This document shows positions 8,069 to 58,778 of a DNA stretch of 64,000 bases, in pieces; the stretch's first letter is position 1, and the number at the start of each line of letters is the position of its first letter. The DNA comes from Gemmobacter caeruleus. Its GTDB lineage: Bacteria > Pseudomonadota > Alphaproteobacteria > Rhodobacterales > Rhodobacteraceae. The position numbers were made by a program, and so were the translations under genes. The notes beneath the pieces are model-generated. The model had not been told where the DNA came from, ran no database searches, and worked only from the letters and a program-made list of their open reading frames with translations. The stretch is from the NCBI RefSeq assembly GCF_008271655.1, contig NZ_VKKX01000022.1, forward strand, positions 496,001 to 560,000. The letters are read 5' to 3'.

Positions 8069-9976
<1,908 letters not shown>

Positions 9977-27344: not shown

Positions 27345-29618
27345 CTAGAGCCGGGCCTGCCCCGTGGCCAGCGGCCGGTCGGTGCGCACCGACAGCAGCA
27401 GTTCCACCAGCAGCCGGGCGGTTTCCTCGGCGCCGCGGGGCGGGGGCAGGCGGGCCGCGCGGGCCGCGACGGATTGTGCAAATTCCGGCGTCAGCCCCTG
27501 CCGGATCAGCCCGCCCACCCGCGCGCCCCCGGCCACGGTCAGCGCAAGGCCAAGGCCCGTGCTGGCGGCATAGGCGGCGCGCAGGGGCTGGTCATCCATG
27601 ATCCCGTCCTGATTGGGCACGAACAGCGCCGGCACCGCGCCGAACACCGCCTCGTGAAAGCTGTTATAGCCGGGCGCGGTGATCAGCAGATCCATCGCCC
27701 GGCCCAGCGGGGCCAGCGGAAACACCGCGCGGCGGGGCGGATCGTCCGGCGCGGGCTCGGGCGGGCTGGCCAGCGGATTGGCGATTTCCAGCACCTGCAC
27801 CTCGGGCATGCCGCGCAGGGCGGCCAACGCGGCGCGGCGCAGCGGCGCCATGTCGAAATTCCGGCTGGAGCCCAGTTGCAGCAGCACCGCCTTGCGCGCC
27901 GGATCAAGCCCCAGCCGGGCGGCAGCCTCTGCCCGCGGCAGGCAATCGCCCGGATCATGAAGCAGGATCGTGCCCACCCGTTCGACCCGGCCCTCTTGCC
28001 GCGTCGGGCCGCGATCCTCGTCGCCCGCCAGTTCGGCCGGCTCGATGATCATGTCGAACAGCGGCAGCGTGGCCGGGTTGATCTGATGATGTTCCTGCCA
28101 AAGGGCACGCCGCAGCCAGACCCAGGCGACATCGCGCCGATGCGGGATCAGCGCGCGGATGGCCGGAAAGGCGTCATTGCCGTCAAAGACCACCATCCGC
28201 GCGCCCGTCGCATCCAGCAGGGCACGCAATTCCAGGGCAAAGGCCTCGTTCCAGCCGGCTCCGGTAACGCCCTGTTTCATATGGGTCGCGACATATTCGG
28301 CGCTGAAGCCCTGGGCGCGCAGAATCTCGGTGCCCAGCGACAGGGTCAGGAAGACCGGCTCCACCCAGGCGGGCAGGCGGCGGGCGATGGCCATCAGCCG
28401 CGTCACATGGCCCAGCCCGATGCCATTGCCACAGACCAGCAGCACCCGGCAAGGCGGCGGTGCCGCGACCAGCGCGGGCAGCGGCGCGGGCGGCACGGCC
28501 CCGGGGCGTTCCTCGGCCTCGGTGCGCAGCGCCAGATCGCGCGGCAGTTCCAGCCCCAGATCGGACCAGAGCCGTTGCAACCGCCCCTTCCCCGCCTCGA
28601 TCGAATAGCGTTCGTCGATCATCGCCCGCGCGGCGCGCGACTGGCGGGCATATTCGTCGGGCCGCGCCATGAACTGCGCCAGGATCCCGCGCACCTCGGC
28701 CGGTTCGGCATAGACCGCGCCGGCGCCGAAAAGCGGCTTGAATGACGGGGGCAGGATGCAGACCAGCCCCTTGGCCAACGCCTCGGCCACGGCGATGCCA
28801 AAGGCCTCCACCCAGTCGGGATGATGGAAATAGACATAGAAATCCAGCCGCGACAGAAAGTCGTCCACCCCTTCCTCGCGAAAGGGCAGCACAGTCCAGT
28901 TCGCCGGGCGCGCCATGCCGCCGGGCAGCGGGGCGGCGCCGAGGATCTGCACCTCCAGCCCCGGATCGTCGGGCCAGGCGGCACGAATCGCCTCCGGGTC
29001 GGCGGGCCATTTCATCGGATCGGCGCGGGAATGGCGCCCGATCACCGCCTGCGCGCGGGGCGGCGGGCGGTCGCGCGGCGGATATTCCACCATGTCGATG
29101 ACATTCCACAGATCATGCGCCAGCATCCGCGCCGGATCCTGCCCCAGCCGCAGCAGCTGCGCCCGCACCAGCGCGCTGATCGGCGCGAGCTGCACCGGCA
29201 CGGCAAAGACCCGCTCCAGATTGCGGATCACCCGGTCCAGATCATATTGCGCCACCCCCGCCGCATCGACCGGCGGATGATGCAGCACCAGCACCACCCG
29301 CGCCGGGCGCAGCGCGACCGGGCGGTCGGGCATGGTCTGAAACACATGCGGATGATGCGCCAGCAGGATGTCGCAACTGGCCGGGGTCGCGGCATCCAGC
29401 AGCGGAAACCCCGTCGCATCCATCAGCGCCACGATGCGCGGGTCAAAGCCCTGCACCTTGCCGCCCCGGCGGCCAAGAAACGGAAGCAGCGCGGCGCGCA
29501 AACCCCAGCCATGCGCCAAAGCAATCTCGCCCCGCAGGGCCGAGGCCGTGCCGCCGCGATACCGCGGATCGCCCGCATGCACGAGATCGAAATGCACAGG
29601 GGCGGGCGGTGGCATCAT
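27345..29618 (-). CDS. Two-headed glycosyltransferase (GT4-like plus MurG/GT28-like)
   Basis: A 757-residue protein with two GT-B type modules. Residues about 5-380 look like a GT4-type enzyme, with YVYFHHPDWVEAFGIAVAEALA as the donor-site segment and a HHPPVD motif earlier. After a Pro/Ala linker, residues about 400-757 open with VLLVCGNGIGLGHVTRLMA, the glycine-rich G-x-GH motif of MurG-like GT28 enzymes, and contain APGYNSFHEAVFGAVP in the donor domain. The start is ATG 29618, four bases after the lipoprotein stop (a second ATG follows directly). It probably adds two successive sugars, but this is inferred from the domain pair only. Confidence 0.72.
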   Translation of the reverse strand: MMPPPAPVHFDLVHAGDPRYRGGTASALRGEIALAHGWGLRAALLPFLGRRGGKVQGFDPRIVALMDATGFPLLDAATPASCDILLAHHPHVFQTMPDRPVALRPARVVLVLHHPPVDAAGVAQYDLDRVIRNLERVFAVPVQLAPISALVRAQLLRLGQDPARMLAHDLWNVIDMVEYPPRDRPPPRAQAVIGRHSRADPMKWPADPEAIRAAWPDDPGLEVQILGAAPLPGGMARPANWTVLPFREEGVDDFLSRLDFYVYFHHPDWVEAFGIAVAEALAKGLVCILPPSFKPLFGAGAVYAEPAEVRGILAQFMARPDEYARQSRAARAMIDERYSIEAGKGRLQRLWSDLGLELPRDLALRTEAEERPGAVPPAPLPALVAAPPPCRVLLVCGNGIGLGHVTRLMAIARRLPAWVEPVFLTLSLGTEILRAQGFSAEYVATHMKQGVTGAGWNEAFALELRALLDATGARMVVFDGNDAFPAIRALIPHRRDVAWVWLRRALWQEHHQINPATLPLFDMIIEPAELAGDEDRGPTRQEGRVERVGTILLHDPGDCLPRAEAAARLGLDPARKAVLLQLGSSRNFDMAPLRRAALAALRGMPEVQVLEIANPLASPPEPAPDDPPRRAVFPLAPLGRAMDLLITAPGYNSFHEAVFGAVPALFVPNQDGIMDDQPLRAAYAASTGLGLALTVAGGARVGGLIRQGLTPEFAQSVAARAARLPPPRGAEETARLLVELLLSVRTDRPLATGQARL

Positions 29619-29622: not shown

Positions 29623-29913
29623 TCAGTAAGGATCGGCGCCCCCGGGCGCAAAGCCCCCGCCATCATTGAGCCGCCGCGCCGTGACCGGCGCGACCGGCTT
29701 GCGCAGCGCATTCGTCGCCATCGCGGCATAGCAACTGTCGGGATAGGCGCTCAGGAACTTGCGATAGGCATCGGCGCTTTTCGCGCGCTGTGCGCCGGCC
29801 CAGGCCTTTTTCTCGGCCTCGGTGGGTTTGCAGTTCGGATCCAGCACCGGCTGGCAAGCCGCGATGACCAGGGCCGAGACCGAAAGCCAGAGCGGCAAGA
29901 GATATCTGCGCAT
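29623..29913 (-). CDS. Small lipoprotein
   Basis: A 96-residue protein with a lipoprotein signal: MRRYLLPLWLSVSALVIAAC has positively charged n-region, hydrophobic core and an IAAC lipobox ahead of Cys20. The mature part is short, with AYRKFLSAYPDSCYAAMATNAL resembling a single TPR-like repeat and a disordered Gly-rich tail. AAGGA precedes the ATG. It sits between the radical SAM-sulfotransferase (83 bases upstream) and the double glycosyltransferase (four bases downstream) on one strand. No function can be assigned. Confidence 0.72.
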   Translation of the reverse strand: MRRYLLPLWLSVSALVIAACQPVLDPNCKPTEAEKKAWAGAQRAKSADAYRKFLSAYPDSCYAAMATNALRKPVAPVTARRLNDGGGFAPGGADPY

Positions 29914-29996: not shown

Positions 29997-32237
29997 TCAA
30001 GGAAAACGGGCCGCGTCCCGCAGCGCGGCGCGAAATGCCTCGGGGTTGGACAGGCGGGCAAGCGGGTCGGTGCTGCGGTCCTGCCGGCGATGGCGCAGAT
30101 GGAACGGGCCGGGCGGCGCCAGCACCAGCGCCGAATCTGCCAGCGCCCGCAGGATCGCGTCACGCATCGACCCCGGCCCCGGCGCCAGATCGCGGTCATA
30201 GTCGATCTCGGCCAGCGGCAGGTCGCCCCGCGCGGCGCGCAGCCCGTCCTGCCATTCCTGCATGCCCTGCGCCCAATCCAGAAAGGCCGCCGGATCGGCC
30301 TCGATCCGCTGGCCGGTGGTGTCGGTATTGGCCCAGCGTTCGGTCCTGCGCGCCTTTTGCCACGAGATCCAGCAATCGAGCAGCGGGCGGTGCAGCAGCA
30401 CGGGCTGGATCGCCGGATCGGCCAGCCACGCAGCCAGCACCGCCTCTGGCACATGGCCGGGAAAGACCTTGATCGCGACCGCCGCCGCCCCGCGCGCCGC
30501 CGCTGCCCGCCGCAGTTGCACCAGCGCCCCGCCCGGATCGCCCCGCAGCCGCCGCACCAGCCGGTGATCGGCCGGCCCCAGCAGGTCATGCCCCATCCAG
30601 CCCGCCAAATGCGCCACCAGCGCGTCATCCGCCCCATAGGCCGCGCGGGGATTGAAGACCTCGCGCAGGACCATCAGGTCGGACCAGCTTTCCAGCGCAT
30701 CGAACAGCAGATTGCTGCCTGACCGCTGCAATCCCAGCACCAGCAGAACGGGCGGCAAGGCGGCGGCGGGCACAGCCGGCACCGGCGGCGCCGCGCGCAG
30801 CGGCGCGAGATTGCCCAGATCGACATCCGGCGCGCCAAAGACCGGGTCGGCCAAGAGGCGCAGCAGTTCAGCATGTTCGGGATGACCCTCTTGCGCCACG
30901 GCCTCGGCCAGATAGTCGGCCTGGGTAAAGGTGCCCCAATTGCGCAGCATCAGGAAATGCACGCCATCGGCCCCGATCCGCCGCGCCTGCGCCACCAGGG
31001 CCGGCATCTGGCGGAAATTGCGCGCCTGCACCACAAAATCCAGCCGCAATTGCCCGATCCGCCCGTCGCGCCGCAGCCCGCCCAGAAAATCCAGGTTGCG
31101 TTGCAGGCGGACGAAATCGCCGTCGCGACGCAGGATCGCATAGGTCTCTGCCTCGGTCGCATCGACCGAGACCCAGACCGACCGCACATGCCCCTCCAGC
31201 CGCAGGCGCTCCCAGGCGCGGGGGTCGAACAGCACGCCATTGGTGTGCAGTTGCAGGCGCGGCTGGCCCGGCACGGGGGGGGCGGTGGTCAGCTTGCCCA
31301 GCACGCGGCGGAAATGGCGGCTGCCAAAGGGATCGCCGCTGCCGGTGACCTTGATAGCCGTCGCCCCGGCCAGCAGCGGCGCGACGCGGGCGTCGTAAAA
31401 GGCATCGAGATCGCGCACCTCGGCCTGCGATTTCGCGATCAGCGCGCTGCGGCAGGACGGGCAGGACAGGTTGCAGGACGTGTCATAGGACAACAACACC
31501 CGACGCGGCGCCTCTGGCACGGGGGCGGTGCCGTCGATCACCGCGCGCAGGGCGGGATCTTTCACCTCGTCCCGGCGCGGCAGGCTGCGGCGCGCGATAT
31601 AGGGGCAGCTGAGCCGCGAGCAATGGCCGAAATCGCCCTCCAGCACCGAGCGGCGCAGTTCCCGCGCCGCCGCCCCCTGCCAGGCGGACAGCGGATCGTC
31701 GCGCCGGGCATTGCCGATGGGCGCCGGCAACCAGGCGGCGCAGCAGGTGTAAAGGTCGGCATTGCCGATGATTTCCAGATCGGTAAAGGGGGCCGGGCAG
31801 AACCGGTCCTGCAACCAGTCATCCACGCCAAGACGCAGGCTGGCGCTACGCTCCTCGGCGGCCAGGAACAGGCGCTGCGCAAAGGTTTCGTGCTGGTCGC
31901 CCGCATAGGCGCGTTCGGCCAGCCGGGCGGCGCGGGCCCAATCCTGCCGGCCGATCGCCAGCAGCGCCGCCGCGACCAGCCCCAGGCCCGGCACGCGGGG
32001 GGCGGCCTCGATCGCCTCCAGTATGGCCTCCTCGGCCCCGGCCAGCGGCGCCTGCGGCCCGGTCACCTGATCGCGCAGAAAGGCACGCGCGAACCTTTCG
32101 GCTTCGTTGATTTCCAGCCGCGCGACACGGCCGCGCATCCGGGCGAAATATTCCGGCTGGGCGGCGCGGGCGGCACGCAGAAAGGCGGCGGCCGGCCCCT
32201 CGCCCGGCGGATCGGGGCCGGGGATTTTCGTTGACAT
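29997..32237 (-). CDS. SPASM-like/radical SAM/sulfotransferase fusion protein
   Basis: A 746-residue protein with three parts. Residues about 145-215 carry a SPASM-like cysteine set (C147 in FCPAPF, C165-C166 in YTCCAAW, C206 and C211 in HCSRLSC), placed before the radical SAM domain rather than after it. Residues 246-480 are the radical SAM core, with C255, C259 and C262 in SCNLSCPSC. Residues about 495-746 form a PAPS-type sulfotransferase: VLGLQRSGSNLLFDAL loop, REVFNP, and LLHRPLLDCWISW as 3'-phosphate site. The start at 32237 (MSTKIPG) is chosen because the frame upstream has no motif and runs antisense to the caspase gene. Function is unknown; combined radical modification and sulfation of one substrate is an inference. 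Confidence 0.8.
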   Translation of the reverse strand: MSTKIPGPDPPGEGPAAAFLRAARAAQPEYFARMRGRVARLEINEAERFARAFLRDQVTGPQAPLAGAEEAILEAIEAAPRVPGLGLVAAALLAIGRQDWARAARLAERAYAGDQHETFAQRLFLAAEERSASLRLGVDDWLQDRFCPAPFTDLEIIGNADLYTCCAAWLPAPIGNARRDDPLSAWQGAAARELRRSVLEGDFGHCSRLSCPYIARRSLPRRDEVKDPALRAVIDGTAPVPEAPRRVLLSYDTSCNLSCPSCRSALIAKSQAEVRDLDAFYDARVAPLLAGATAIKVTGSGDPFGSRHFRRVLGKLTTAPPVPGQPRLQLHTNGVLFDPRAWERLRLEGHVRSVWVSVDATEAETYAILRRDGDFVRLQRNLDFLGGLRRDGRIGQLRLDFVVQARNFRQMPALVAQARRIGADGVHFLMLRNWGTFTQADYLAEAVAQEGHPEHAELLRLLADPVFGAPDVDLGNLAPLRAAPPVPAVPAAALPPVLLVLGLQRSGSNLLFDALESWSDLMVLREVFNPRAAYGADDALVAHLAGWMGHDLLGPADHRLVRRLRGDPGGALVQLRRAAAARGAAAVAIKVFPGHVPEAVLAAWLADPAIQPVLLHRPLLDCWISWQKARRTERWANTDTTGQRIEADPAAFLDWAQGMQEWQDGLRAARGDLPLAEIDYDRDLAPGPGSMRDAILRALADSALVLAPPGPFHLRHRRQDRSTDPLARLSNPEAFRAALRDAARFP

Positions 32238-32336: not shown

Positions 32337-34496
32337 ATGACGCGCTATCCTGTCCGGCTTTGGCCGGTTCTTCTGGTCGCCCTGACCTGCGCCCAGCCGC
32401 TTTGGGCCGAGGGGCGCCGTGCCGTGGTCATCGGCAACAGCGCCTATCCCGGCGCGCCGCTGGAAAACCCCGACCGCGACGCCCGGCTGATGGCGCAGAC
32501 GCTGGATGAGCTGGGCTTTGACGTATCGCTGTTTCTGGATGTGAGCAGCGCGCAGATGCCGTTGCTGCTGGACCGGGTGCAGGAAAAGCTGGCCGATGCC
32601 GAGGTGGCGGTGGTCTATTACGCGGGCCACGGGCTTCAATTCCGGGACGAGAACCTGCTTTTGCCGGTGGATACCGATTTCACCTCGGTCGCGGGCATCG
32701 CGGGGGCGGGCCTGCCGCTGAGCCGGATGCTGGGCGCGGCGACGGCGGGGGGCGGCGGGGTGCGGCTGGTGATCCTCGATGCCTGCCGCAACGCGCTGGC
32801 CGCCAGTGCGCCCGAGGGCGAGCTGAAATCCGGTTTCAGCTTTGTCGAGGCGCCGCGTGGCGAGGTGCTGATCGCCTTTTCCACCGGCGCGGGCGAGGTG
32901 GCCTTCGATTCCGCCGGCGGCGTGAACAGCCCCTATACGACCGCGCTGGCCAATGCGCTGCAACAGTCGGGCGCCGATCTTTATGACGTGTTCCGCAGCG
33001 TGCGCCGCGCGGTGCGGTCGGGCACGGGGGGGCAGCAGATCCCCTGGATCACCGGCTCGATCGAATCGTCGGTGGTGCTGCGCCCGGCCCTGACCCGCGC
33101 GGCGCCAGTGCCGGCCGATGCTGCGGCGGGCGCGGTGGTGCGCACCCAGGGCGGCGCGGTGCTGACGCTGGATGGCGTCTTGTGGGATTACCTGCAAGGC
33201 AGCGTGAACCCCGACGATTTCCGCCGCTTTGCCGAGGTATTTCCCGACAGCCCCCACGCCCCCGAGGCCCGCGACCGGCAGGGCCAGACGCTCGCCCGTG
33301 CCGATGCGCAATCGGTCTCGCGCGATGGGGTGCGGCTCAGCCCGCAAGAGATCGTGACCGAGATGGGCGCCGCCAGCCCCGATCCGGGCGAGACGGGCCG
33401 CGCCTCGGTGCTGATCGACCAGTCGGGCAGCTATGTGATGCGCGACAGTTTCCGCACCTGGCCGCTGCAATTGCCGGCGACCAAGGCGGGGCTGGCCGCC
33501 AGCGCCACCGATTGCGACGAGGAGGCCGCCGATCCGGTAGACCCCGACAAACTTTCGCCCGGCGTGTCGGATGCCAATCTGAACATCCGCCGCGCGCTGC
33601 GCGCCTGCGCCTTTGCCCTGGCCGCGGACCCGCAGAACCCCCGGCTGCTGTTCCAGTTCGGGCGGGTGCTGGATGTGGCGCGGCGCCATGACTGGGCGAA
33701 TGCCTGGTATGAGGCCGCGATCGAAGGCGGCTACAGCGCCGCCATGGTCAATCGCGGCTTCAATGCCCGCATGGGGCGCGGCGGCGCGCGCGACCCCGAC
33801 CTGTCCTTCGCGCTTTACACCCGCGCCGCGCAGGGCGGCAATCTGCGCGGGCGCACCAATCTGGGCAATGCCTTCCTGCTGGGCGAGGGGGTGGAGAAGA
33901 ACCCCGAGGAAGGCGTTTTGTGGCTGCGGCTGGCGGCCTCGATGGGGTGGCCCCATGCGGTGAACGCACTTGGCGACGCCTATATGAACGGCACCGGCGT
34001 CACCGCCACGCCAGAGGAAGCGGTGGCGCTCTATCGTTCGGCCGCCGAGATGGGGCAGACCACCGCCATGGCCAATCTGGGCCGTGCCTATCTGGCGGGG
34101 CGCGGCGTCGCGGCGGATGCGGCGCAGGGGCTGGCCTGGCTGGACCGGGCGCGCGGCATGGGCAACGGCTTTGCCCCGGTCTATGCCGGGCGGTTCTATC
34201 TGGAGGGCGGTGGCGGTATCGCGGCCGATCCGCCCCGCGCCCGGCAATTGTTCGAGGACGCCACCCGGCGCGGCAATGCCATCGGCTATCTGGAACTGGC
34301 CGAGGGCCATCGCAAGGGCGCCTTCGGCGCCCCGCCCGACCTGGAAGCCGCGCTGCGCAATGCGCTTTTTGCCGAGGCCGGGCGGGTAAAGCAGGCCGCC
34401 CCGCTGGTCGAGGAACTCGCCGCCACCCTGCCCGCCGACCGGGTCGCCGCGATCCGGGCCGAGGTGAAGACCTTTCTCGATCAGAACGGGCTCTGA
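32337..34496 (+). CDS. Secreted caspase-family protein with Sel1-like repeats
   Basis: A 719-residue protein with signal peptide (MTRYPVRLWPVLLVAL, cleaved near AQPLWA). Residues 26-260 are a peptidase C14 (metacaspase-like) domain: RRAVVIGNSAYPG, catalytic H98 in YYAGHGL and C150 in LDACRNALA. Residues about 455-700 hold tandem Sel1/TPR-type repeats, for example GEGVEKNPEEGVLWLRLAA and AYLAGRGVAADAAQGLAWL. It would act in the periplasm or outside. Location beside a type VI secretion locus is suggestive but not proof of a link. It diverges from the radical SAM fusion gene across 99 bases, and a 141-residue gene starts two bases after its stop. Confidence 0.85.
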   Translation: MTRYPVRLWPVLLVALTCAQPLWAEGRRAVVIGNSAYPGAPLENPDRDARLMAQTLDELGFDVSLFLDVSSAQMPLLLDRVQEKLADAEVAVVYYAGHGLQFRDENLLLPVDTDFTSVAGIAGAGLPLSRMLGAATAGGGGVRLVILDACRNALAASAPEGELKSGFSFVEAPRGEVLIAFSTGAGEVAFDSAGGVNSPYTTALANALQQSGADLYDVFRSVRRAVRSGTGGQQIPWITGSIESSVVLRPALTRAAPVPADAAAGAVVRTQGGAVLTLDGVLWDYLQGSVNPDDFRRFAEVFPDSPHAPEARDRQGQTLARADAQSVSRDGVRLSPQEIVTEMGAASPDPGETGRASVLIDQSGSYVMRDSFRTWPLQLPATKAGLAASATDCDEEAADPVDPDKLSPGVSDANLNIRRALRACAFALAADPQNPRLLFQFGRVLDVARRHDWANAWYEAAIEGGYSAAMVNRGFNARMGRGGARDPDLSFALYTRAAQGGNLRGRTNLGNAFLLGEGVEKNPEEGVLWLRLAASMGWPHAVNALGDAYMNGTGVTATPEEAVALYRSAAEMGQTTAMANLGRAYLAGRGVAADAAQGLAWLDRARGMGNGFAPVYAGRFYLEGGGGIAADPPRARQLFEDATRRGNAIGYLELAEGHRKGAFGAPPDLEAALRNALFAEAGRVKQAAPLVEELAATLPADRVAAIRAEVKTFLDQNGL

Positions 34497-35289: not shown

Positions 35290-36006
35290 TCAGCTCAGCG
35301 CCTGGAATTCGACGCGGCGGTTCTCCGGCCCCTTGGGATCGGCGGGGTCGAACAGGAAGCGTTCACCCAGCCCCATGGCCTCCAGCCGGTCAGGGCCTAT
35401 GCCGCAATCCTTGACCATGCGGCGCTTCACCTCTTCGGCGCGCAGCAGCGAAAGGCGTTCGTTATAGGCGTCCGTCCCGGCGGAATCGGTATGACCGACG
35501 ATGCGGAACAGCTTGATATCGCTGGCCTTCATCACCTTGCACATCTGATCCAGCACCGGCGCCTGATCGGCCGCGATCGAGGCGCTGTCGAAATCGAAGC
35601 GGATGCGGATATTGACCTGCAATTCCTTGGGCAAAAGGCCAAAGGTCACCGGCTGCACCAGTGCGGGGGCATTCTGCGCGACCGGCTGATCGGCGGTGAT
35701 CGGCGCTTCGGTCAGGGTCACGGCGCCGCCCTGCGGATCGGTGCCCAGCGGCGCGGGGCTGTCGCCGGTGACAGGGGCCGCCGCCGCCACATCGCCGGTG
35801 GCCGGGGCCACGGCCTCGCCGGTCTCGTCCAGCGTCAGCAGGGTCAGGCCGCGCGTCTTGCCGGTGCCGGTCTGCACCGCCTGGAACGCCTCGCGCTGCA
35901 TCTGGAACATGCGCAGCAGCTCATCGTCGCTCAGCGTCTGTCCGACCGCCAAGACAGGAAGGAAAAGGCCGCAGACCAAGGCGGCGAAAAGGCCCGAACG
36001 TCGCAT
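35290..36006 (-). CDS. OmpA-family peptidoglycan-binding protein
   Basis: A 238-residue exported protein. MRRSGLFAALVCGLFLPVLA is the signal peptide. A variable Ala/Pro/Thr-rich middle is followed by an OmpA C-terminal domain (residues about 125-238): IRFDFDSASIAADQAPVLDQM, then VGHTDSAGTDAYNERLSLLRA with the conserved Asp/Arg that bind diaminopimelate in peptidoglycan. It would be periplasmic or outer-membrane associated. A candidate promoter lies at 36042-36070. It leads a two-gene minus unit and diverges from the PP2C gene of the type VI locus. Confidence 0.85.
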   Translation of the reverse strand: MRRSGLFAALVCGLFLPVLAVGQTLSDDELLRMFQMQREAFQAVQTGTGKTRGLTLLTLDETGEAVAPATGDVAAAAPVTGDSPAPLGTDPQGGAVTLTEAPITADQPVAQNAPALVQPVTFGLLPKELQVNIRIRFDFDSASIAADQAPVLDQMCKVMKASDIKLFRIVGHTDSAGTDAYNERLSLLRAEEVKRRMVKDCGIGPDRLEAMGLGERFLFDPADPKGPENRRVEFQALS

Positions 36007-36031
36007 GAAAGCACCCGAAAATATCAATTAA

Positions 36032-36045
36032 GGATGGACCCATCC
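36032..36045. repeat. Small inverted repeat in the ompA-like/PP2C intergenic region
   Basis: GGATGG-AC-CCATCC is a perfect 6-base inverted repeat overlapping the candidate -10 box of the OmpA-like gene promoter. It is a possible operator. Confidence 0.3.
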
Positions 36046-36070
36046 TATGCTAGATTGGCTCTGTTTTCAA
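36042..36070 (-). promoter_or_regulatory. Candidate sigma-70 promoter of the OmpA-like gene
   Basis: On the minus strand TTGAAA and TAGGAT are 17 bases apart (five of six and four of six matches), 36 bases before the ATG at 36006. Confidence 0.4.
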
Positions 36071-36139
36071 TTGCGACCCTTTTCCGGATCATTCACAGAT
36101 GCCCGATTGCATTGCCCCCTTGGCCCCGGGTGACGGGCC

Positions 36140-36907
36140 ATGACGCAGCCCACGACCTTTGTCCCGCGCAGCCCGGCGCGCTGGCCTGCCGCCGTGCCGA
36201 CCGCGCTTGGCGCAGGGCTGACCCATCGTGGCCGGGTGCGCAGCGCCAATGAGGACGCGATCCTGACCGATCCGAGCGGGCGGCTCTGGGCGGTGGCCGA
36301 CGGGATGGGCGGGCATGAGGGCGGCGCGCTGGCCTCGGATCTGGTGATCGACACGCTGGCCGCCATCCGCGACGAGGACGACCCGGCCGAAGCGCTGGAC
36401 GCGGCGCTGACCGAGGCCAATGCCCGGGTGCGCGCGGCGGCGGCCGAACGCGGCGCGGGCATGATGGGGGCGACCGTGGTCGCGGTGCTGATCGACCAGG
36501 GCATCGCCCATGTCGCCTGGGCGGGCGACAGCCGCGCCTATCTGCTGCGCGGCACGCGGCTGCGGATGCTGACCCATGATCATACCGTGGTGCAGGATCT
36601 GGTCGATCGCGGCCAACTGGCCGCCGAGGCGCGCGAACACCACCCCGAGGCACATGTGATCACCCGCGCCGTGGGCGCCGCGCCGGAACTGGAGATCGAC
36701 CACGCCGCCGTGCCGCTGGTGCCGGGCGACCGGCTGATGCTGTGTTCCGACGGGCTGCCGCGCTGCGTCTATGAAAGCGTGATCGAGGCGCTGCTGGCGC
36801 TGGCCGAAACCGCCACTGTCGCGACCGAGATCCTGATCCGCCGCGCGCTGGAGGAGGGCGCGCCGGACAATGTCTCGGTCATCGTGGTCGATCTGACGGG
36901 CGGGTAA
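36140..36907 (+). CDS. PP2C-family protein phosphatase of the type VI locus (PppA-like)
   Basis: A 255-residue metal-dependent Ser/Thr phosphatase. PP2C motifs are in order: TRGRVRSANEDA-like (here THRGRVRSANEDAIL), VADGMGGHEGG with the two metal aspartates, AWAGDSRAYLLR, LTHDHTVVQ, and CSDGLPR, ending with DNVSVIVVDL. In type VI systems PppA reverses phosphorylation of the FHA protein by PpkA and switches secretion off. Both partners are present at 49918 and 58779. It begins a plus-strand operon with an M15 peptidase, a TssL/TssM-like hybrid and vgrG; spacing to the next gene is four bases. Confidence 0.9.
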   Translation: MTQPTTFVPRSPARWPAAVPTALGAGLTHRGRVRSANEDAILTDPSGRLWAVADGMGGHEGGALASDLVIDTLAAIRDEDDPAEALDAALTEANARVRAAAAERGAGMMGATVVAVLIDQGIAHVAWAGDSRAYLLRGTRLRMLTHDHTVVQDLVDRGQLAAEAREHHPEAHVITRAVGAAPELEIDHAAVPLVPGDRLMLCSDGLPRCVYESVIEALLALAETATVATEILIRRALEEGAPDNVSVIVVDLTGG

Positions 36908-36911
36908 CGGC

Positions 36912-37817
36912 ATGGCACAGGCAAGGGGCACCCTGATCGGGCCGATCATCGTGGCGATCGGCGTCGTGGTCGCGGCCATCGCCTTTGCGGTGGTGACGGT
37001 GCTGCTCGATACCGCGGACGGCGCGGCGGAACTGCGGCTGTCACGGCTGGAGGATGCCGTGGCGCGGCTGGAGGCGCAGGGGGCCGAGACCGCCTCGCAG
37101 GCCGAGGGGCAGAAGGCCGACCTCGCGCGGCTGCGCGAGGAAATGAGCCTGCTGGCCAATCGCGGCCCCGCTTTGCCGACAACCGCTTCGGGCGCCGAGG
37201 CCCTGCTGGCCGCGCCGCCGCTGCAAGACCCGGCCGCACTCCTGCCCGATGAGGATTTCGAAACCGCGCCGACCGAGGCGCTGACCGAACAGATGAAGCT
37301 GGCCAAGACCCGCTTCAACAAGGGTGTCACCCAGCCGCGCAACCGCATCATGATGGAACTGCTGGGCCCGCCGCGCGACAGCTACAACACCGATTGCCAG
37401 CCGGTCAGCAACCCCGCGCTCAAGGGCCTGATCGAGACGCGGCAGGTGGGGCCGATCAAGGTCTCCATGCTGCGGCCCGCACTGGAAAGCCTGGAACGGG
37501 TGTTGAACCGGCTGAAGGAAAGCGACCCCGACATCTATGCCAAGGTCGGCACCGCCGGCGCGCTTTGTGCGCGGTTCATCCGCGGCTCCACCACCTCGGT
37601 CTCGAACCATTCCTGGGGCACGGCGATCGACCTGACGCTGGAGGGCAAGCTGGACGGTTTCGCCGATGGCGGCACGCAGTTCGGGCTGCTGATCCTGGCG
37701 GAATATTTCAATGACGAAGGCTGGTTCTGGGGCGCCGCCTATAATCGCGAGGATTCGATGCATTTCGAGGTGGGCGAGGAAACCCTGCGCGCCTGGAAGG
37801 CCGAAGGGCGGCTTTAG
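36912..37817 (+). CDS. Membrane-anchored M15 peptidase (TagX-like)
   Basis: A 301-residue protein. Residues 8-31 are a membrane anchor and 36-82 a short predicted coiled coil (LSRLEDAVARLEAQ). Residues 140-300 are a VanY/M15 metallopeptidase domain with zinc ligands H233 and D240 in SNHSWGTAIDL and H284 in DSMHFEVG. The topology puts the domain in the periplasm, so peptidoglycan is the likely substrate. In Acinetobacter the M15 protein TagX is an L,D-endopeptidase that opens the cell wall for type VI assembly; a matching role is inferred from domain and context. It lies four bases after the phosphatase and three before the next gene. Confidence 0.82.
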   Translation: MAQARGTLIGPIIVAIGVVVAAIAFAVVTVLLDTADGAAELRLSRLEDAVARLEAQGAETASQAEGQKADLARLREEMSLLANRGPALPTTASGAEALLAAPPLQDPAALLPDEDFETAPTEALTEQMKLAKTRFNKGVTQPRNRIMMELLGPPRDSYNTDCQPVSNPALKGLIETRQVGPIKVSMLRPALESLERVLNRLKESDPDIYAKVGTAGALCARFIRGSTTSVSNHSWGTAIDLTLEGKLDGFADGGTQFGLLILAEYFNDEGWFWGAAYNREDSMHFEVGEETLRAWKAEGRL

Positions 37818-37820
37818 GTC

Positions 37821-40259
37821 ATGGCGGCGGGGCCAGAGGTCTATCAACGGCTGGCCGATCCGGTGCTGGCCTATGCCGACCGGCTGGCCGATGTGCGGGG
37901 CGAACGCCTGGGCGATCTGCTGCGCCATGCGACCGTGCTGCTTGACCGTTTCGGGTCGGGGCTGCAACGGGCCGGCGTGCCGGGGCCGGCGGTGCTGCCG
38001 GCGCGGCTCGCGCTTGGGCTGGTGCTGGATCACGAGGCCCGCGCCAATCGCGAGATCGACCCCGCGCTCTGGGGCGAGGGCGCGCGCCGCCTGCTGTTCG
38101 AGGGGCGCACCGTCGCCCTGGCGGATATCGCGGAATATCAGCGCCGCGCGGCGGGGGCCGGGCCGGATTATGTCGGCGCGGCGGGGTTTCTGGCCGCCTG
38201 CCTTGCCCGGCTGGAGGGCGCGCGGCGGCATTATGACAGCGGCCCGGTCACGACGAACTGGACCGGAATCCTGCTCGTCTTGATCAGCGCCTATGTGCTG
38301 GCAATCCTTGGCTGGGGCGCCTGGGTCGAATGGCGTTTTCACCGCGATCTGGCGGCGGCCTTTGACGCGCAGGCACTGGCCACCGGGCTGGACCGCGACG
38401 GCAGCTTTGTCGATCTGGCGGCGCGGCTGGATGCGCTGGCCGCCGCCGCCGATACCACCGCCGCCACCCGGGCGCGGGCGCCGGTCAACCTGTTCGCGCA
38501 TCTGGCCGGCTATGATGCCGCCGACCGGGCGCAGGCCACCTATGCCGATGCGCTGGCGCGTCACCTGCCGCCGTTGCTGGCCCGCGCGCTGGATGATGCG
38601 CTGGCCCGCGAGGGCGAGCCGGTCGCCGCCTATGACACGCTGCGCGCCCATGCGGTGCTGTCAGGCGCGACCGAATGGCAACCCGACTGGCTCGCTGGCT
38701 GGACTGCGGCGCGCGTGGCCGAGGATGCGGCGCTGCGCGGGCTGGCGCCGCATGTCGCGCGGCTGGCCCCGCCGGCCACCGCCCCGCCCGCGCCGGATGC
38801 CGAATTGCTGGCCCAGGCCCGTATCCTGGCCGCCGAGGCCCCAGAGCCCGACCGCGCCTATCTGGAACTGAACCGCGCCGCCGCCACCGCCGCCCCGCCC
38901 GACTGGCGCCCCGATCAGGCGGTGCCGGGCCTGTCGGCGGTCTTGCGGCGTAAATCGGACCTCGCCTTTGACACGCCGATTGACGGGCTTTTCACCGATG
39001 CCGGCTGGGCCGAGGCACGCGATTTCGGCGCCGGGCTGGCGGTGCAGGCGGCGCGCGATCAGGCGGCACGGCTGTTCCCTACCCCGCCCCCGCCGCAAAA
39101 CGACACGCCCGACATTCTGATGGACCGGCTGCAACAGCAGACGCTGGCGGTCTGGTCCGGCTATCTGGCCGATCTGCGGGTGCGCGAATTCACCACGCCC
39201 GACGCCTCGGTCCGCATCTCGGGCGAACTGGCGCGGCGCAATTCGGTGCTGGAACAGCTTCTGGCGCAGGTCTGGCAGCAGGCGGGCGGGCGCGACCGAA
39301 GCCGCAGCCATCCGCAGCAACTGGCCATTGCCGCCGAATTCGGGCCGATGATCCAATATGTCGAACAAGGCCGCATGCAAGAGATTGCCGCCCTGTTCGC
39401 CGGGCTGAATGTCGCGCTTGGCGCCATGGACCGGACCGAGGAAACCGGCCAGCAGCGCCTGATGTCGGCGCAGGATCGCGGGCGTTCGGTCGCCACGCTG
39501 GGGGTGGCGCCGACCGTGGTCGTGCAGATCGTCGAGGATACGCTGGCCCAGACCGGCGCCGCCCATGCCGATCTTCTGTCCAACCCGCTGACCCAGATCT
39601 GGCAGGCGCAAGTGCTGGAAACCTGCCTTCAGGCCACCGCCGGCCACTTTCCCTTTGCCGACAGCGCCGAGGAGGCCGAGCCCGCCACCCTTCAACACCT
39701 GTTCGGCCCCGGCGGGCTGATCGACCGCTTCGTGACCGGCCGCGCCGCCGAGATGCTGGATACCAGCGCAACCCCCTGGCGGTGGAAGCCCGAGGCAAGG
39801 TTCGAGGGGCTGGCCCCCGAAAGCGCCGCCTTCCTGCAACGCGCGCAGGCGATTGGCGCCGGTCTGTTCGGCAAGGGTGACCTGCGCGCCACGCTGACGC
39901 TTTCGGCACTGGCCGAACGCGGGCGGGCCTTTGTCACGCTGGGGGGCACCGGTGGCCCGGTCGAGGCCACGACCGAGGCGCTACGGCTGGATTGGCCCGG
40001 CCCCGACCCCGCTGCCGGGATCGAGGCGCGCTTTACCGGCGCGGGCGGCGAGGCGCGGCTGACGGCGCCCGGTCTCTGGGGGCTGTTGCGGCTGCTGGCG
40101 CCGCTGCGGCTGCGCGAACGCGATGGCGGGCAGCGTTTTCTGATCGACCTCAAGGCCGAGGATGCCCGGCTGTTTCTGGAACTGCAATTCGACAGCCCGC
40201 AGAACCCGCTGGCGCTGCGCGGGCTGATGCGCGGCCTGACCTGCCCGCCCGTCCTGTGA
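37821..40259 (+). CDS. TssL-like/TssM-like hybrid membrane protein of the type VI locus
   Basis: An 812-residue protein. Residues 1-135 are helical and resemble the cytoplasmic DotU/TssL domain (LRHATVLLDRFGSGLQRAGV, then ARLALGLVLDHEARANREID). One membrane span lies at 147-167. The large remaining part matches the periplasmic region of TssM/IcmF, clearest near residues 625-690: LFGPGGLIDRFV and TPWRWKPEARF parallel LFGPGGLIDTFT and RPWNWRADFGL in the complete TssM at 43158-46703. The NTPase domain of TssM is missing, and so is a TssL OmpA domain. It is most likely a paralogue working with or modifying the membrane complex. Neighbours are the M15 peptidase and vgrG. Confidence 0.72.
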   Translation: MAAGPEVYQRLADPVLAYADRLADVRGERLGDLLRHATVLLDRFGSGLQRAGVPGPAVLPARLALGLVLDHEARANREIDPALWGEGARRLLFEGRTVALADIAEYQRRAAGAGPDYVGAAGFLAACLARLEGARRHYDSGPVTTNWTGILLVLISAYVLAILGWGAWVEWRFHRDLAAAFDAQALATGLDRDGSFVDLAARLDALAAAADTTAATRARAPVNLFAHLAGYDAADRAQATYADALARHLPPLLARALDDALAREGEPVAAYDTLRAHAVLSGATEWQPDWLAGWTAARVAEDAALRGLAPHVARLAPPATAPPAPDAELLAQARILAAEAPEPDRAYLELNRAAATAAPPDWRPDQAVPGLSAVLRRKSDLAFDTPIDGLFTDAGWAEARDFGAGLAVQAARDQAARLFPTPPPPQNDTPDILMDRLQQQTLAVWSGYLADLRVREFTTPDASVRISGELARRNSVLEQLLAQVWQQAGGRDRSRSHPQQLAIAAEFGPMIQYVEQGRMQEIAALFAGLNVALGAMDRTEETGQQRLMSAQDRGRSVATLGVAPTVVVQIVEDTLAQTGAAHADLLSNPLTQIWQAQVLETCLQATAGHFPFADSAEEAEPATLQHLFGPGGLIDRFVTGRAAEMLDTSATPWRWKPEARFEGLAPESAAFLQRAQAIGAGLFGKGDLRATLTLSALAERGRAFVTLGGTGGPVEATTEALRLDWPGPDPAAGIEARFTGAGGEARLTAPGLWGLLRLLAPLRLRERDGGQRFLIDLKAEDARLFLELQFDSPQNPLALRGLMRGLTCPPVL

Positions 40260-40358
40260 TTTCCGCCCGAATCGCGGGAATTGCGTCATACTGCCCGCTA
40301 TTGTCCCCGGCATTTCGCCAAGCCTGTTTTGAACATATATCTGACGAAAGACTCTGCC

Positions 40359-42689
40359 ATGGTCACAAGAGAGAGAGAGTTTGATGACGATCTGCCGGCG
40401 GGCGGGCCCTCCCGTATCACCGTGTCGATCCCCGCCATCGAACAGGAGCATTTCTTCGCGCGCATGGACGGTGAGGAACAGCTGAGCCAGTGCTTTTCCT
40501 ACAGTCTTCTGATCAGTTGCAAGGACATGAACCTGAAGCCGGAAACCGTGCTGGGCACCCCGGCGCTGGTGACCCACAAGCTGCACAAGCCGCGCCATTT
40601 TCACGGCTTCGTCACCGATTTCGCCCTGGAGGAGATACGCGACGATCTGGCGTTTTTCCGGCTCACGCTGCGGCCCTGGCTCTGGTTCCTGTCACTGGAA
40701 ACCGACAACCGCATCTTTCAGGAAAAATCGGTGCCCGACATCGTGGAGGAGGTGTTTCGCGACTGGCCCGAGGCGCGGTTCAAATCCAGGATCGGCGGCC
40801 GACATGATAAGCGGGAATATTGCGTGCAATATGGCGAAAGCGACCTGGATTTCGTGCAGCGCCTGCTGGAAGACGAAGGCATATTCTATTACTTCACCCA
40901 TGACGAAACCGGGCATGTCCTGATACTTTGCGACAGCAATCCGGCCAAGGACTGGATCCCGCTGACCTATCAGCCCGACGTCTTCCAACATCAATCGGGG
41001 CGCCACTACATCACGCATTGGGCGCCGCGCACGCAGGTCAGCAGTGGCAAGTTCACCGCCCGCGACTATGATTTCGAAAAACCGGCCCTTGACCTGACAG
41101 CCAGGCAGATCGCAGAGCCAAGACAGGCCCAGAACAAGGCCGAACTCTATCACTATCCGGGTCGCTATGTGGATCTGGGGACGGGCGAGGCCATCGCGAA
41201 ACGCCGGCTGGAGGAGGCACAGGCAGATCATTGCCGTGTCAGCGCGAAGACCACGGCGCTTTTGCTGGCGCCGGGTCAATCTTTCGTGCTGGAGCATTTC
41301 CCGCGCGAGGTCGAAAATGGCGACTACTTCGTCGTCTCGGCCCGCTATTCGCTGTGGGACGAAGAATTGCGTGCCGGCCAGGCCAGTGACGAGGAAGGCT
41401 ATGAGATGAGCATGGTCGTCTCGCCGCATGCGCAACCGTTTCGGCCGCCACGCATCACGCCGCGCCCGCGCATGGCGGGGCCGCAGACCGCCGTCGTGGT
41501 CGGGCCTGCCGGGTCGGAGATTTTCACCGACAAGTATTCGCGCGTAAAGGTGCAGTTCCATTGGGACCGGCTGGGCCGGCACGACGAGAATACCAGTTGC
41601 TTCATCCGGGTCAGTTCGGTCTGGGCCGGGGCGGGCTGGGGCTTCATCCAGATCCCGCGCATCGGGCAAGAGGTGATCGTGGATTTCCTGGAGGGCGACC
41701 CCGATCAGCCGCTGATCACCGGGCGGGTCTATAACGCGCAGCAGCCGGTGCCCTATGGCCTGCCCGACAATGCCTCGCAATCGGGGTGGAAAAGCTGGTC
41801 TACCCCGGGGGGGGGTGGCTGGAACGAGCTGCGGTTCGAAGACAAGGCCGGCGCGGAGGAAGTGTATTTCCAGGCGCAGAAAGACCACCGCGAATGGATC
41901 AAGCACAACGAAACCCGCCAGATCGACAATGATTTCGCCGAGGATGTGGGCCATGACGCGCAGCAATCCATCGGCCACGACCGCACCGAAAGCGTGGGCC
42001 ATGACAAGCAGGTCAGCGTGGGCAACAACCGCACGGTGCAGATCGGCGTGAATGACGATGAAACCGTGGGGTCGAACCGCAGCCTGACGGTGGGCGCGAA
42101 TGAAACGATCACCATCGGCAGCAATTCGACTGAAACCATCGGCGCGAACCATAGCCAGACCGTCGCCGTCGCGCAGACCATCACCGTAGGGGCCGCCCGC
42201 ACCGATACCGTGGGCGCGGCCGAGGTGCGCAGCGTGGGGGCCGGGCAGATCAACACCGTGGCCGCCGACCGGCGCATGACCGTCGGCTCGGATCAGGTGC
42301 ATGCCGTGGGCAGCAACGATCAATGGTCGGTCGGGTCGAACCAGTCGATCGACATCGGCGCCGACCAGACCGTCACCATCGGCGGCGGGCAGGTGACGCA
42401 GATCGGCAAGGATCAGATCGCCAAGGTCGGCGGCGCCCGCGGTATCGAGGTGGGCAAGAGCCAGGCGCACAAGATCGGCGAAAGCTGGGCGGTGAAGGCC
42501 GGCAAGACCATCATCCTCGAGGCGGGCGATGCCATCACGCTCAAATGCGGATCGGCCGCCATCGCGATGAAGAAGGACGGCACGATCACCATCGAAGGCA
42601 AGGACATCACGCTGAAAGGCTCGGGCAAGATCAATGCCAAGGCCTCGGGCGATGTGGTGATCAAGGGATCGAAGATCCTGAACAACTGA
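40359..42689 (+). CDS. vgrG: Type VI spike protein VgrG (TssI)
   Basis: A 776-residue trimeric spike that sits on the Hcp tube. Residues 20-370 match the gp27-like base, residues 380-470 the gp5 OB-fold (KYSRVKVQFHWDRLG and WAGAGWGFIQIPRIGQEVIVDFLEGDPDQP, shown in part). Residues 530-713 form 23 octapeptides with V/I-G at the first two positions. The tail (713-776, GTITIEGKDITLKGSGK) is DUF2345-like. No enzymatic extension is visible, so effectors are probably carried by adaptors such as the DUF2169 protein at the right edge. The start at 40359 is chosen because upstream residues match nothing. Its 3' end overlaps the opposing tagF by 29 bases. Confidence 0.93.
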   Translation: MVTREREFDDDLPAGGPSRITVSIPAIEQEHFFARMDGEEQLSQCFSYSLLISCKDMNLKPETVLGTPALVTHKLHKPRHFHGFVTDFALEEIRDDLAFFRLTLRPWLWFLSLETDNRIFQEKSVPDIVEEVFRDWPEARFKSRIGGRHDKREYCVQYGESDLDFVQRLLEDEGIFYYFTHDETGHVLILCDSNPAKDWIPLTYQPDVFQHQSGRHYITHWAPRTQVSSGKFTARDYDFEKPALDLTARQIAEPRQAQNKAELYHYPGRYVDLGTGEAIAKRRLEEAQADHCRVSAKTTALLLAPGQSFVLEHFPREVENGDYFVVSARYSLWDEELRAGQASDEEGYEMSMVVSPHAQPFRPPRITPRPRMAGPQTAVVVGPAGSEIFTDKYSRVKVQFHWDRLGRHDENTSCFIRVSSVWAGAGWGFIQIPRIGQEVIVDFLEGDPDQPLITGRVYNAQQPVPYGLPDNASQSGWKSWSTPGGGGWNELRFEDKAGAEEVYFQAQKDHREWIKHNETRQIDNDFAEDVGHDAQQSIGHDRTESVGHDKQVSVGNNRTVQIGVNDDETVGSNRSLTVGANETITIGSNSTETIGANHSQTVAVAQTITVGAARTDTVGAAEVRSVGAGQINTVAADRRMTVGSDQVHAVGSNDQWSVGSNQSIDIGADQTVTIGGGQVTQIGKDQIAKVGGARGIEVGKSQAHKIGESWAVKAGKTIILEAGDAITLKCGSAAIAMKKDGTITIEGKDITLKGSGKINAKASGDVVIKGSKILNN
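41946..42497 (+). repeat. Octapeptide repeat region in vgrG
   Basis: The DNA codes for 23 consecutive 8-residue units with the form (V/I)(G/A)xxxxxx, for example VGSNRSLT, VGANETIT, IGSNSTET and IGANHSQT. The period is 24 bases; bases differ between units, so this is an old repeat kept by protein structure (the triple beta-helix needle). Confidence 0.88.
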
Positions 42690-43176
42690 ACAGCGGCGCC
42701 AGCGCCGGCGCGTCAGGGTCCACCGCCTGCGCCGGCTGGCCACGCCGCCAGACCTGCATCGCCGCGCCCTGCCCTGCCGCGCCTTCGGGCAGCGGTAGCG
42801 CCGCCAGTGCCGCCCATAGCGTTTCGGCATCCTGCCCACCTGCCTGCGCGGCGGTCAGCGCGGCATGGGCGGCATCGGCCCAGCGGTCCAGTGCCGGCGG
42901 ATCAGGCAGATCACCGGCGATCGCGAAAGCCGCCAGCGGAAAGCGGCGGCCTGCGATATCGCGGCTTGGCACCGCAACACCGCAGGCCACACGCCCACCG
43001 GAGGCAAGACGCAGGCGCAGGCCCCCCTCAGGCCATGCCTCCTGCGTCACCAGATACCGCGCGGCCCAGCGATCCCAATAGACGCGGAACCCGTGCGGCA
43101 GCCCCCGCGTGACGAAATCCCCCGTCACCGGAAGTTTGCCGTGAAACCCGACCAGAGTCAGAAGCTCTGCGGGCAT
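42661..43176 (-). CDS. tagF: Type VI secretion accessory protein TagF
   Basis: A 171-residue cytoplasmic protein. VGFHGKLPVTGDFVTRGLP near the N-terminus is the TagF signature; the rest (RRFPLAAFAIAGDLPDPP) continues the domain. In Pseudomonas TagF represses type VI secretion after translation through the FHA protein, independently of PpkA. The ATG at 43176 lies 19 bases inside the end of tssM, so it is the last coupled gene of the long minus operon. It converges with vgrG by 29 bases. No PppA domain is fused; the phosphatase is a separate gene. Confidence 0.9.
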   Translation of the reverse strand: MPAELLTLVGFHGKLPVTGDFVTRGLPHGFRVYWDRWAARYLVTQEAWPEGGLRLRLASGGRVACGVAVPSRDIAGRRFPLAAFAIAGDLPDPPALDRWADAAHAALTAAQAGGQDAETLWAALAALPLPEGAAGQGAAMQVWRRGQPAQAVDPDAPALAPLFSCSGSSIP

Positions 43177-46703: not shown

Positions 46704-46706
46704 GGG

Positions 46707-48125: not shown

Positions 48126-48129
48126 GCCG

Positions 48130-49461: not shown

Positions 49462-49484
49462 ACCCTTCCCCTTCCGGTGCCGTC

Positions 49485-49931
49485 TTATGCCGGGCTCAGC
49501 GCCACGCCGCTGCCGCTGATCACCAGGCTGAAGGTCACGCTGTCGGTGGCCGAAACCGGCGATTTGGCGCGGAACCGCTTGCCGCCCGGGTCGCGGAAAC
49601 CCGCGATCACGCCGATCACGGTGGTGCCGGCATCCAGCCCGATGGTGCGGCTTTGCTTGGCCCCCGCGGTCAGCGCGATCTGGTCGGCCTTGATGAACTC
49701 GGCCCCGAGCGCGGTCGCCGGGTCCTGCAAGGCAAAGAAATCCGCGCCGTCAAAGGCGCCGGCGGAACGCATCTGCACGATCTGCACCGTCAGCGGGCGG
49801 TCCACCCCGTCGGGGCCGGGGTTCATGCCGGCAGCACCCTGCGCCACGATGGTCACGGCACCGGGGCCGGCGGGGGTGCAGGCGACCAGTCCAAGCGTGG
49901 TCGCCCCAAGCAGAAAATCACGTCTTTCCAT
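49485..49931 (-). CDS. tssJ: Type VI outer-membrane lipoprotein TssJ
   Basis: A 148-residue lipoprotein that attaches the complex to the outer membrane through TssM. The lipobox LVAC gives Cys18 as the lipidated residue. The n-region MERRDFLLGATTLG has a twin-arginine-like RRDFLLG, unusual for TssJ. The mature part carries the transthyretin-like fold hallmarks: DGVDRPLTVQIVQMRS and a strand FFALQDPATALG typical of TssJ. The start at 49931 overlaps the end of tagH by 14 bases. Short length and low conservation make gene order important, but the motif support is good. Confidence 0.88.
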   Translation of the reverse strand: MERRDFLLGATTLGLVACTPAGPGAVTIVAQGAAGMNPGPDGVDRPLTVQIVQMRSAGAFDGADFFALQDPATALGAEFIKADQIALTAGAKQSRTIGLDAGTTVIGVIAGFRDPGGKRFRAKSPVSATDSVTFSLVISGSGVALSPA

Positions 49932-54151: not shown

Positions 54152-54154
54152 CGC

Positions 54155-54871: not shown

Positions 54872-54897
54872 ACGCGCCCCCTTTCGCCTGCCGCGGC

Positions 54898-55389: not shown

Positions 55390-55467
55390 GGGTCTGTCCT
55401 TTCAAAAGCTCTGTTCGGGGAAGAAATTCTGCCACCCCGGCAAGGGGCGGGTCTTGGAAAGGGAAAG

Positions 55468-55490
55468 CCGGGGCCGCAAACCGGCCCCGG
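55468..55490 (-). other. Strong GC hairpin between tssC and hcp
   Basis: On the minus strand CCGGGGCCG, loop GTTTG, CGGCCCCGG is a perfect 9-base stem followed by CTTTCCCTTTCC. It lacks a run of pure T, so it may be a partial terminator or a protective structure at the 5' end of a processed hcp mRNA. Confidence 0.5.
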
Positions 55491-55505
55491 GACAGGGAAA
55501 CCGGA

Positions 55506-57020: not shown

Positions 57021-57023
57021 GGC

Positions 57024-57554: not shown

Positions 57555-57557
57555 CGC

Positions 57558-58685: not shown

Positions 58686-58726
58686 GGTGCCAGAACTGTA
58701 AATCAAAAAGAATGTGGCCAAGGTTG

Positions 58727-58760
58727 GCACGGCACCGCGATTCTTGCAACGCTGCCGTGC
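58727..58760. repeat. Inverted repeat upstream of tssA
   Basis: GCACGGCA, 18 bases, TGCCGTGC: an 8-base perfect inverted repeat in the gap between the kinase stop and the tssA start. It could be an operator or a hairpin that shapes expression of tssA onward. Confidence 0.35.
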
Positions 58761-58778
58761 AGGACCGACGCGCGGCGA

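Follow-up and report, generated by a model that had tools for sequence, protein, structure and literature searches.

A rare radical SAM-sulfotransferase fusion in a recurrent alphaproteobacterial gene cassette with a small exported protein ending in tyrosine

A fusion protein with radical SAM and sulfotransferase parts

We studied a stretch of 64,000 nucleotides from Gemmobacter caeruleus (Rhodobacteraceae; contig NZ_VKKX01000022.1, positions 496,001 to 560,000 of the forward strand), referred to here as the window, in which one gene codes for a radical S-adenosylmethionine (SAM) enzyme fused to a sulfotransferase. The open reading frame (ORF) runs on the minus strand from an ATG at 32237 to a stop at 29997 and encodes one chain of 746 amino acids with no internal stop, as an earlier reading made from the letters alone (the sequence-only reading) had proposed. 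A helical N-terminal part (residues 1 to 135) is followed by SPASM/Twitch-like cysteines (147 to 211), the radical SAM core (ca. 244 to 480), a linker (ca. 481 to 495), and the sulfotransferase (495 to 746). Both cysteine sets named in that reading, the CxxxCxxC motif (C255, C259, and C262) and the second set ahead of the core (C147, C165, C166, C206, and C211), were invariant in all eight radical SAM parts aligned, the window's own counted, and the sulfotransferase motifs RSGSNLL and HRPLLDCWISW lie at residues 505 to 511 and 616 to 626.

Searched as a single sequence, the fusion matched Pfam SPASM (residues 147 to 207; 18.4 bits, curated cut-off of 21.5), Radical_SAM (PF04055; residues 255 to 383; 19.1 bits, cut-off of 29.5), and Sulfotransfer_3 (residues 496 to 680; 15.8 bits, cut-off of 27), all in the right places and all under the curated cut-offs. 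Of the radical SAM genes from the related cassettes described below that were scanned, those of loci L019 (30.9 bits), L071, L072, L073, and L074 passed the PF04055 cut-off, while those of L022 (26.3 bits), L023 (27.2 bits), L069, and L070 did not reach it; the SPASM cut-off was exceeded by L022 (28.1 bits), L023 (43.1 bits), and L070. Sulfotransferases of L022 (a stand-alone protein; Sulfotransfer_1, 35.3 versus 22 bits), L031, L069, and L070 passed Pfam cut-offs, and that of L072 stayed below, like the window's own. The sulfotransferase homology claimed for residues 495 to 746 is real, since a profile of five sulfotransferase parts matched PDB entry 9vki (“LPS sulfotransferase NodH”; E = 1.2e-11) over a span that takes in both motifs of the site for 3'-phosphoadenosine 5'-phosphosulfate (PAPS). 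Along similar lines, the fusion has the partial triosephosphate isomerase (TIM) barrel fold of the radical SAM superfamily, together with the 5'-phosphosulfate-binding (5'-PSB) and 3'-phosphate motifs and the fold of the PAPS sulfotransferase superfamily. Its fold neighbors include sugar enzymes, and the sulfotransferases among them act on tyrosine as well as on sugars.

Full-length fusions with 46 to 53% identity to that of the window were found in Yoonia sediminilitoris (L016), Loktanella sp. Alg231-35 (L017), and Rhodobacteraceae bacterium CCMM004 (L018, genome G346). Because the same fusion is present at these three loci, it is not the product of a frameshift, and the 746-residue chain is an intact, genuine radical SAM-sulfotransferase fusion. 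Nothing spoke for two genes having been joined by an error of sequencing or assembly, and we take the probability of this to be negligible. In genome G089 (L022), the two parts are separate, adjoining genes on the same strand that overlap by one base (TGATG), an arrangement that bears out the suggestion of the sequence-only reading that both activities belong to one pathway. Its stronger proposal, that a single substrate is both radical modified and sulfated, is only partly favored: the two steps are separable, given that the cassettes of L019 (a Paracoccus zhejiangensis plasmid) and L023 have the radical SAM part with no sulfotransferase seen, and L031 has a sulfotransferase with no radical SAM gene seen. 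The radical SAM part also stands alone in L024. In L031, a second sulfotransferase domain follows in the same chain (7269-8948, plus strand), beside the double glycosyltransferase. In L019, a gene annotated as “glycosyltransferase family 25” (13068-14402, minus strand) shares 100 bases with the 3' end of the radical SAM gene, which lies on the opposite strand.

The fusion is rare among the genomes searched. Some match was present in 14 of 394 genomes of the family, with the fusion in 2, and a contig scan by peptide patterns recovered 3 fusion loci, one of them in the same genome as G346. A radical SAM profile matched 3 of 385 genomes of the class, the window's own included (the two others lack the sulfotransferase part), and among 299 genomes from the phylum and 11 from the genus its sole match was the window's own copy. 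These genome sets overlap, and none of the searches is exhaustive. In the tree, the four fused sequences and the split one (L022) grouped with a support of 90/93, below the mark of 95/80, but the tree did not place fusion and split in order. No paper on the fusion or its cassette was among those listed by the full-text literature searches, most subscription journals and preprints lying outside their range.

The cassette and its constant and exchangeable parts

A cross-comparison of neighborhoods showed that the genes around the fusion recur together: a caspase with Sel1 repeats, a double GT-B-type glycosyltransferase, a protein of 141 residues that we call P142, and a small lipoprotein (Table 1). 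In the window, fusion, lipoprotein, and glycosyltransferase genes form a minus-strand series with gaps of 83 and 4 bases, from which the caspase and P142 genes diverge.

Table 1. Features of the window around the fusion gene
Feature	Position	Strand	Remarks
Double GT-B-type glycosyltransferase	27345..29618	minus	ca. 757 aa; Pfam/NCBIfam matches weak, under cut-off
Small lipoprotein	29623..29913	minus	96 aa; lipobox IAAC; C terminus ...GGADPY; proposed substrate
Radical SAM-sulfotransferase fusion	29997..32237	minus	746 aa; ORF, motif, profile, alignment, and fold evidence
Caspase with Sel1 repeats	32337..34496	plus	Peptidase_C14; AGHG/DACR His and Cys motifs; export-like N terminus
P142	34499..34924	plus	141 aa; fold unknown; directly 3' of the caspase gene
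Type VI secretion cluster	35290..63789		TssC gene at 55506-57020 by PF05943
OmpA-like, VgrG, TssM, TssK, kinase, and ClpV-like genes	within 35290..63789		read by eye

The glycosyltransferase served as the search bait and is hence present in every cassette. It matched 49 of the 394 family genomes at 1e-30, with 16 places spanning almost the whole profile. Bait matches and earlier loci gave 20 Rhodobacteraceae-type cassettes (the window, L016 to L019, L022, L023, L031, and L068 to L079). The glycosyltransferase of L079 is shorter, and the contigs of L075 and L079 are short. The caspase was found in 17 of the 20 and relatives of P142 linked by BLAST in 10, four of which had initially been recognized by eye and then served as queries. 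P142, looked at as a possible counterpart of the PqqD-like chaperone MftB of mycofactocin, has no Pfam or NCBIfam match. Radical SAM genes were present in 13 of the 20 fetched cassette stretches and sulfotransferases in 9. The exchangeable parts comprise these radical SAM enzymes, sulfotransferases of different Pfam families, family 2 glycosyltransferases (GT2s), a gene with a methyltransferase domain (Shinella HZN7), and heparinase II/III-like genes (two Shinella records), and they look like decoration enzymes. The cassette was also considered as a defense system, a candidate that was dropped: PADLOC gave only a weak caspase match (16.2 bits).

Several other genes of the cassettes and the window were recorded. 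Glycosyltransferase-like proteins with a DADN/DADT motif, alike by eye, occur in six cassettes that have no fusion, namely, L069 (12979-14283), L070 (13067-14362), L072 (12259-13581), L076 (1884-2810), L077 (5066-6001), and L078 (2516-3418); the three scanned (L069, L072, and L076) had no Pfam family above cut-off. In the window, a second sulfotransferase-like protein (19662-21059, plus strand; Sulfotransfer_3, E = 0.00068, under cut-off) sits among glycosyltransferase-like genes and has a layout unrelated to that of the fusion, and a protein with GGxGxD-type repeats (22477-23769, plus strand) resembles, by eye, calcium-binding repeats-in-toxin (RTX) proteins.

A small exported protein that ends in tyrosine

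The window lipoprotein has a short helical domain (weakly TPR_6-like), a linker, and a tail. Small proteins of 13 others among the 20 cassettes and of 8 further loci share the domain. The cassette presents a small gene beside tailoring enzymes, as do systems with precursors of the ribosomally synthesized and posttranslationally modified peptide (RiPP) type. The last residue of the small exported protein was exactly tyrosine in 17 of the 20 cassettes. The residue before it varied (P, A, E, S, L, V, N, D, or M): the window has Pro-Tyr, and Val-Tyr was found in L072, L073, and Rhizobium sullae and not in the others.

Small ORFs with an export-like start ended in tyrosine in 14 of 55 cases inside cassettes (one, L070 10945-11136, probably spurious) versus 1 of 58 outside (P = 1.6e-4; given the relatedness of the loci, P values for tyrosine are a guide only), and other gene calls did so in 5 of 289. 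A domain profile blind to the tail was built from the N-terminal domain of 14 BLAST-linked small proteins with the last 20 residues removed, and all ORFs of 34 loci were searched with it. Of the 22 small proteins matched, 21 end exactly in tyrosine (the exception being L074). Outside the training set, all eight matches end in tyrosine, namely, L084, L085, L086, and five rhizobial proteins, three of which are >92% identical. The profile also matched five long caspase-type proteins, none of them ending in tyrosine. As an observation in its own right, the helical segment of the small protein lies within long cassette caspase-type proteins of L093 (12974-15274), L095 (11627-13783), L076 (4719-7733), and L022 (10539-12713).

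Beside the tyrosine-ended protein, a second small lipoprotein, similar by eye, is present in L072 (3073-3672), L073 (6876-7490), L074 (6767-7354), and L077 (8009-8491; no Pfam match above cut-off for this copy). L022 encodes two small proteins with twin-arginine translocation (Tat) signals (RRDFL) on the plus strand (13129-13374 and 13594-13815); the tail is of the Arg/Gly kind in one and of the Asp/Glu/Tyr kind in the other, and downstream lie genes that by eye resemble those of PqqD-like proteins and nucleotidyltransferases. The Tat-signal peptides with Asp/Glu/Tyr-rich tails were set aside as substrates, L022 carrying its own tyrosine-ended lipoprotein of 50 residues.

Rhizobial plasmids and type VI secretion

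The glycosyltransferase was present in 53 plasmid records, nine of which were fetched besides that of P. zhejiangensis: Rhizobium etli CIAT 652, R. etli IE4771, R. lentis, R. sullae, Rhizobium sp. 32-5/1, Sinorhizobium americanum, S. meliloti 1132, Shinella HZN7, and S. zoogloeoides. All nine had the caspase, P142, and a small exported protein ending in tyrosine. The latter is annotated as hypothetical in R. etli CIAT 652, R. etli IE4771, R. lentis, and S. zoogloeoides, as well as in P. zhejiangensis (WP_101754485.1); its gene is missing from the (incomplete) PLSDB gene table for S. americanum, Shinella HZN7, and S. meliloti, and the R. sullae and 32-5/1 records have no annotation. Tyrosine-ended lipoprotein genes absent from the PLSDB table lie, all on the plus strand, in L093 (6557-6763), L096 (7646-7846), and L090 (11569-11892). 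The small proteins of the two Shinella, 32-5/1, and S. meliloti are similar to each other (..GCETSAGKP..) and end in NY or DY, and the domain profile, based on Rhodobacteraceae, did not match them.

In the window, the cassette adjoins a type VI secretion system (T6SS) cluster, and the annotation shows the same for R. etli IE4771, R. lentis, and S. americanum. In P. zhejiangensis, T6SS-type genes lie nearby (TssC at ca. 14 kb from the radical SAM gene), and in L077 TssC falls within the fetched stretch. Overall, TssC was present in 14 of 19 cassette genomes or records (6/8 plus 8/11) versus 25 of 100 genomes of the family, or 21 of 95 with cassette genomes excluded (P = 2.8e-5). It was not found in the other five, one of which is 82% complete and one of which carries the fusion (L017), and the reading of the cassette as an obligate T6SS component or T6SS-only accessory was dropped on these grounds. 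In its main text, as far as it was available, a paper on the R. etli T6SS (PMC10215855) does not contain the words “glycosyltransferase,” “peptidase,” or “lipoprotein.”

Proposed function

We consider the chances evenly balanced that the cassette serves to decorate the small exported lipoprotein at its C-terminal tyrosine, with the fusion as a bifunctional tailoring enzyme. In this scheme, the lipoprotein would be made in the cytoplasm, where the double GT-B glycosyltransferase would build a sugar on the tyrosine; glycosylation of this residue is proposed on the grounds of the constant cassette parts. The radical SAM half might then oxidize, epimerize, or cross-link the sugar or the tyrosine, and the sulfotransferase half would move a sulfate from PAPS, the presumed donor, so that the fusion would act on the tyrosine or on a glycan built upon it. 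Tyrosine or sugar may be the sulfate acceptor, as the fold neighbors include sulfotransferases of both. The lipoprotein would subsequently be exported to the periplasm, the probable site of action of the caspase. The attachment site, the order and chemistry of the steps, and the part played by the caspase are all putative. More broadly, we tentatively propose an undescribed system, a little easier to doubt than to accept at present, in which the constant glycosyltransferase glycosylates the last-residue tyrosine of the lipoprotein, and radical SAM enzymes, sulfotransferases, a methyltransferase, and further glycosyltransferases diversify the product, often near a T6SS, the radical and sulfation steps having been fused in the lineage of the window.

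Several observations weigh against this predicted modification of the lipoprotein. The tyrosine lies one or two residues before the end in L075 (..PYN), L023 (..YDG), and L074 (..LYSR). The small ORFs of L022, L031, L068, L071, L093, L095, and L096 were noticed through their tyrosine ending, that of L095 only after the search had been widened to ca. 5 kb from the glycosyltransferase, and some of the 14 training proteins were first seen in tyrosine lists, which makes the eight new matches the cleaner count. A prediction fixed beforehand, that of a small exported-like ORF ending in tyrosine, came true at one (L084) of five new glycosyltransferase loci (the class search gave four, and the family search gave one, a partial match). 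L085 and L086 have a tyrosine-ended small protein (97 to 100 residues from an ATG) that was outside the size/hydrophobicity filter and appeared under the later domain search only, and none was found in L087 and L088, which are partial glycosyltransferase matches. BLAST detected no radical SAM or sulfotransferase in the nine rhizobial stretches or in L075 to L079, so that these enzymes are not core components. Nor is the caspase constant, as it was not found in L017, L075, L079, L085, and L086; among the five new loci it was present only in L084, so the tyrosine ending does not need it. The AlphaFold model of the fusion is modest (mean predicted local distance difference test [pLDDT] score of 67.9, <50 in the cysteine region). 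C-terminal aromatic residues also act as outer membrane assembly signals; the small exported proteins do not have the look of a beta-barrel.

The comparison with known systems bears on the alternatives. In mycofactocin, according to the accessible text of PMC7491314, the C-terminal tyrosine is the target of the radical SAM enzyme, and sugars are carried on its hydroxyl. The cassette resembles that system (MftA/MftC/MftF) in its ribosomal precursor with a C-terminal tyrosine, its radical SAM enzyme, and its glycosyltransferase, but its precursor, a lipoprotein or Sec protein, is exported and lacks the constant Val-Tyr core, it has a sulfotransferase and a caspase, and its glycosyltransferase is a double GT-B. 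The fusion scored only 26 bits with the MftC model (TIGR03962; cut-off of 265); mycofactocin is the nearest analogue and not a family match. The likeness, including this weak maturase match, would also suit a small molecule of the mycofactocin kind, with the tyrosine tail modified, then cut off its carrier, for instance by the caspase, and set free as a cofactor or signal. We regard this as improbable: export-like starts are found on the precursor and the caspase and not on the enzymes, which means that cutting would come after export, no MftD/MftE-like gene was noticed, and the residue before the tyrosine varies instead of being valine.

A more serious competitor, albeit still unlikely, is that the substrate of the fusion is a free sugar nucleotide or a surface polysaccharide, tailored by a radical step like those of DesII and BlsE and sulfation like that of Stf0 and NodH, with the tyrosine as no more than a recognition or sorting signal. 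The sugar enzymes among the closest folds, the match to a NodH structure, the extra glycosyltransferases nearby, and the heparinase II/III-like genes of Shinella all fit it. However, no polysaccharide polymerase, flippase, or ligase was noticed inside the cassettes (no profile search was made), and the tyrosine-ended protein persists where radical SAM enzyme and sulfotransferase were not found. DesII and BlsE share only 18 and 21% identity with the fusion, whose auxiliary cysteines, unlike theirs, come before the core, and their structures have no sulfotransferase. The cassettes with only one of the two activities would also agree with halves that act on different substrates and are fused for coexpression only, but the one-base overlap of the unfused genes in L022 and the presence of both activities in the same cassette type make this quite improbable, even more so than a mycofactocin-like product.

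As to the architecture, the sequence-only reading took the N-terminal position of the SPASM-like cysteines as unusual. They do precede the core, but this layout was already known from NCBIfam NF033640 (N_Twi_rSAM), to which residues 144 to 455 align (model positions 2 to 333 of 398; 54.1 bits, below the cut-off of 170), and the distant cassette radical SAM of L070 has the same order; the claim of novelty was therefore dropped. The fusion differs from NF033640 proteins in its extra helical N terminus and C-terminal sulfotransferase, and from the PAPS-dependent sulfotransferases of the Stf0, NodH, and Sulfotransfer_1 to Sulfotransfer_3 group in carrying a radical SAM part. For other conflict systems, PMC7159879 suggests that a peptide effector is modified by a radical SAM enzyme; the accessible part of that paper does not include the cassette of the fusion.

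Significance

The recurrence of a tyrosine-ended exported protein, which we propose as the substrate of the cassette enzymes, suggests an undescribed chemical decoration of its last residue. If true, this would connect modification of a C-terminal tyrosine with the chemistry of radical SAM enzymes and sulfation and with type VI secretion neighborhoods, three things that to our knowledge are not known to go together, and the link would span two common alphaproteobacterial groups, bean symbionts included. It also makes a definite prediction for genes now named hypothetical protein, glycosyltransferase, or caspase. The fusion itself would offer a handle for both steps on one substrate, and it matters chiefly as the way into a recurrent cassette with a tyrosine-ended exported protein.
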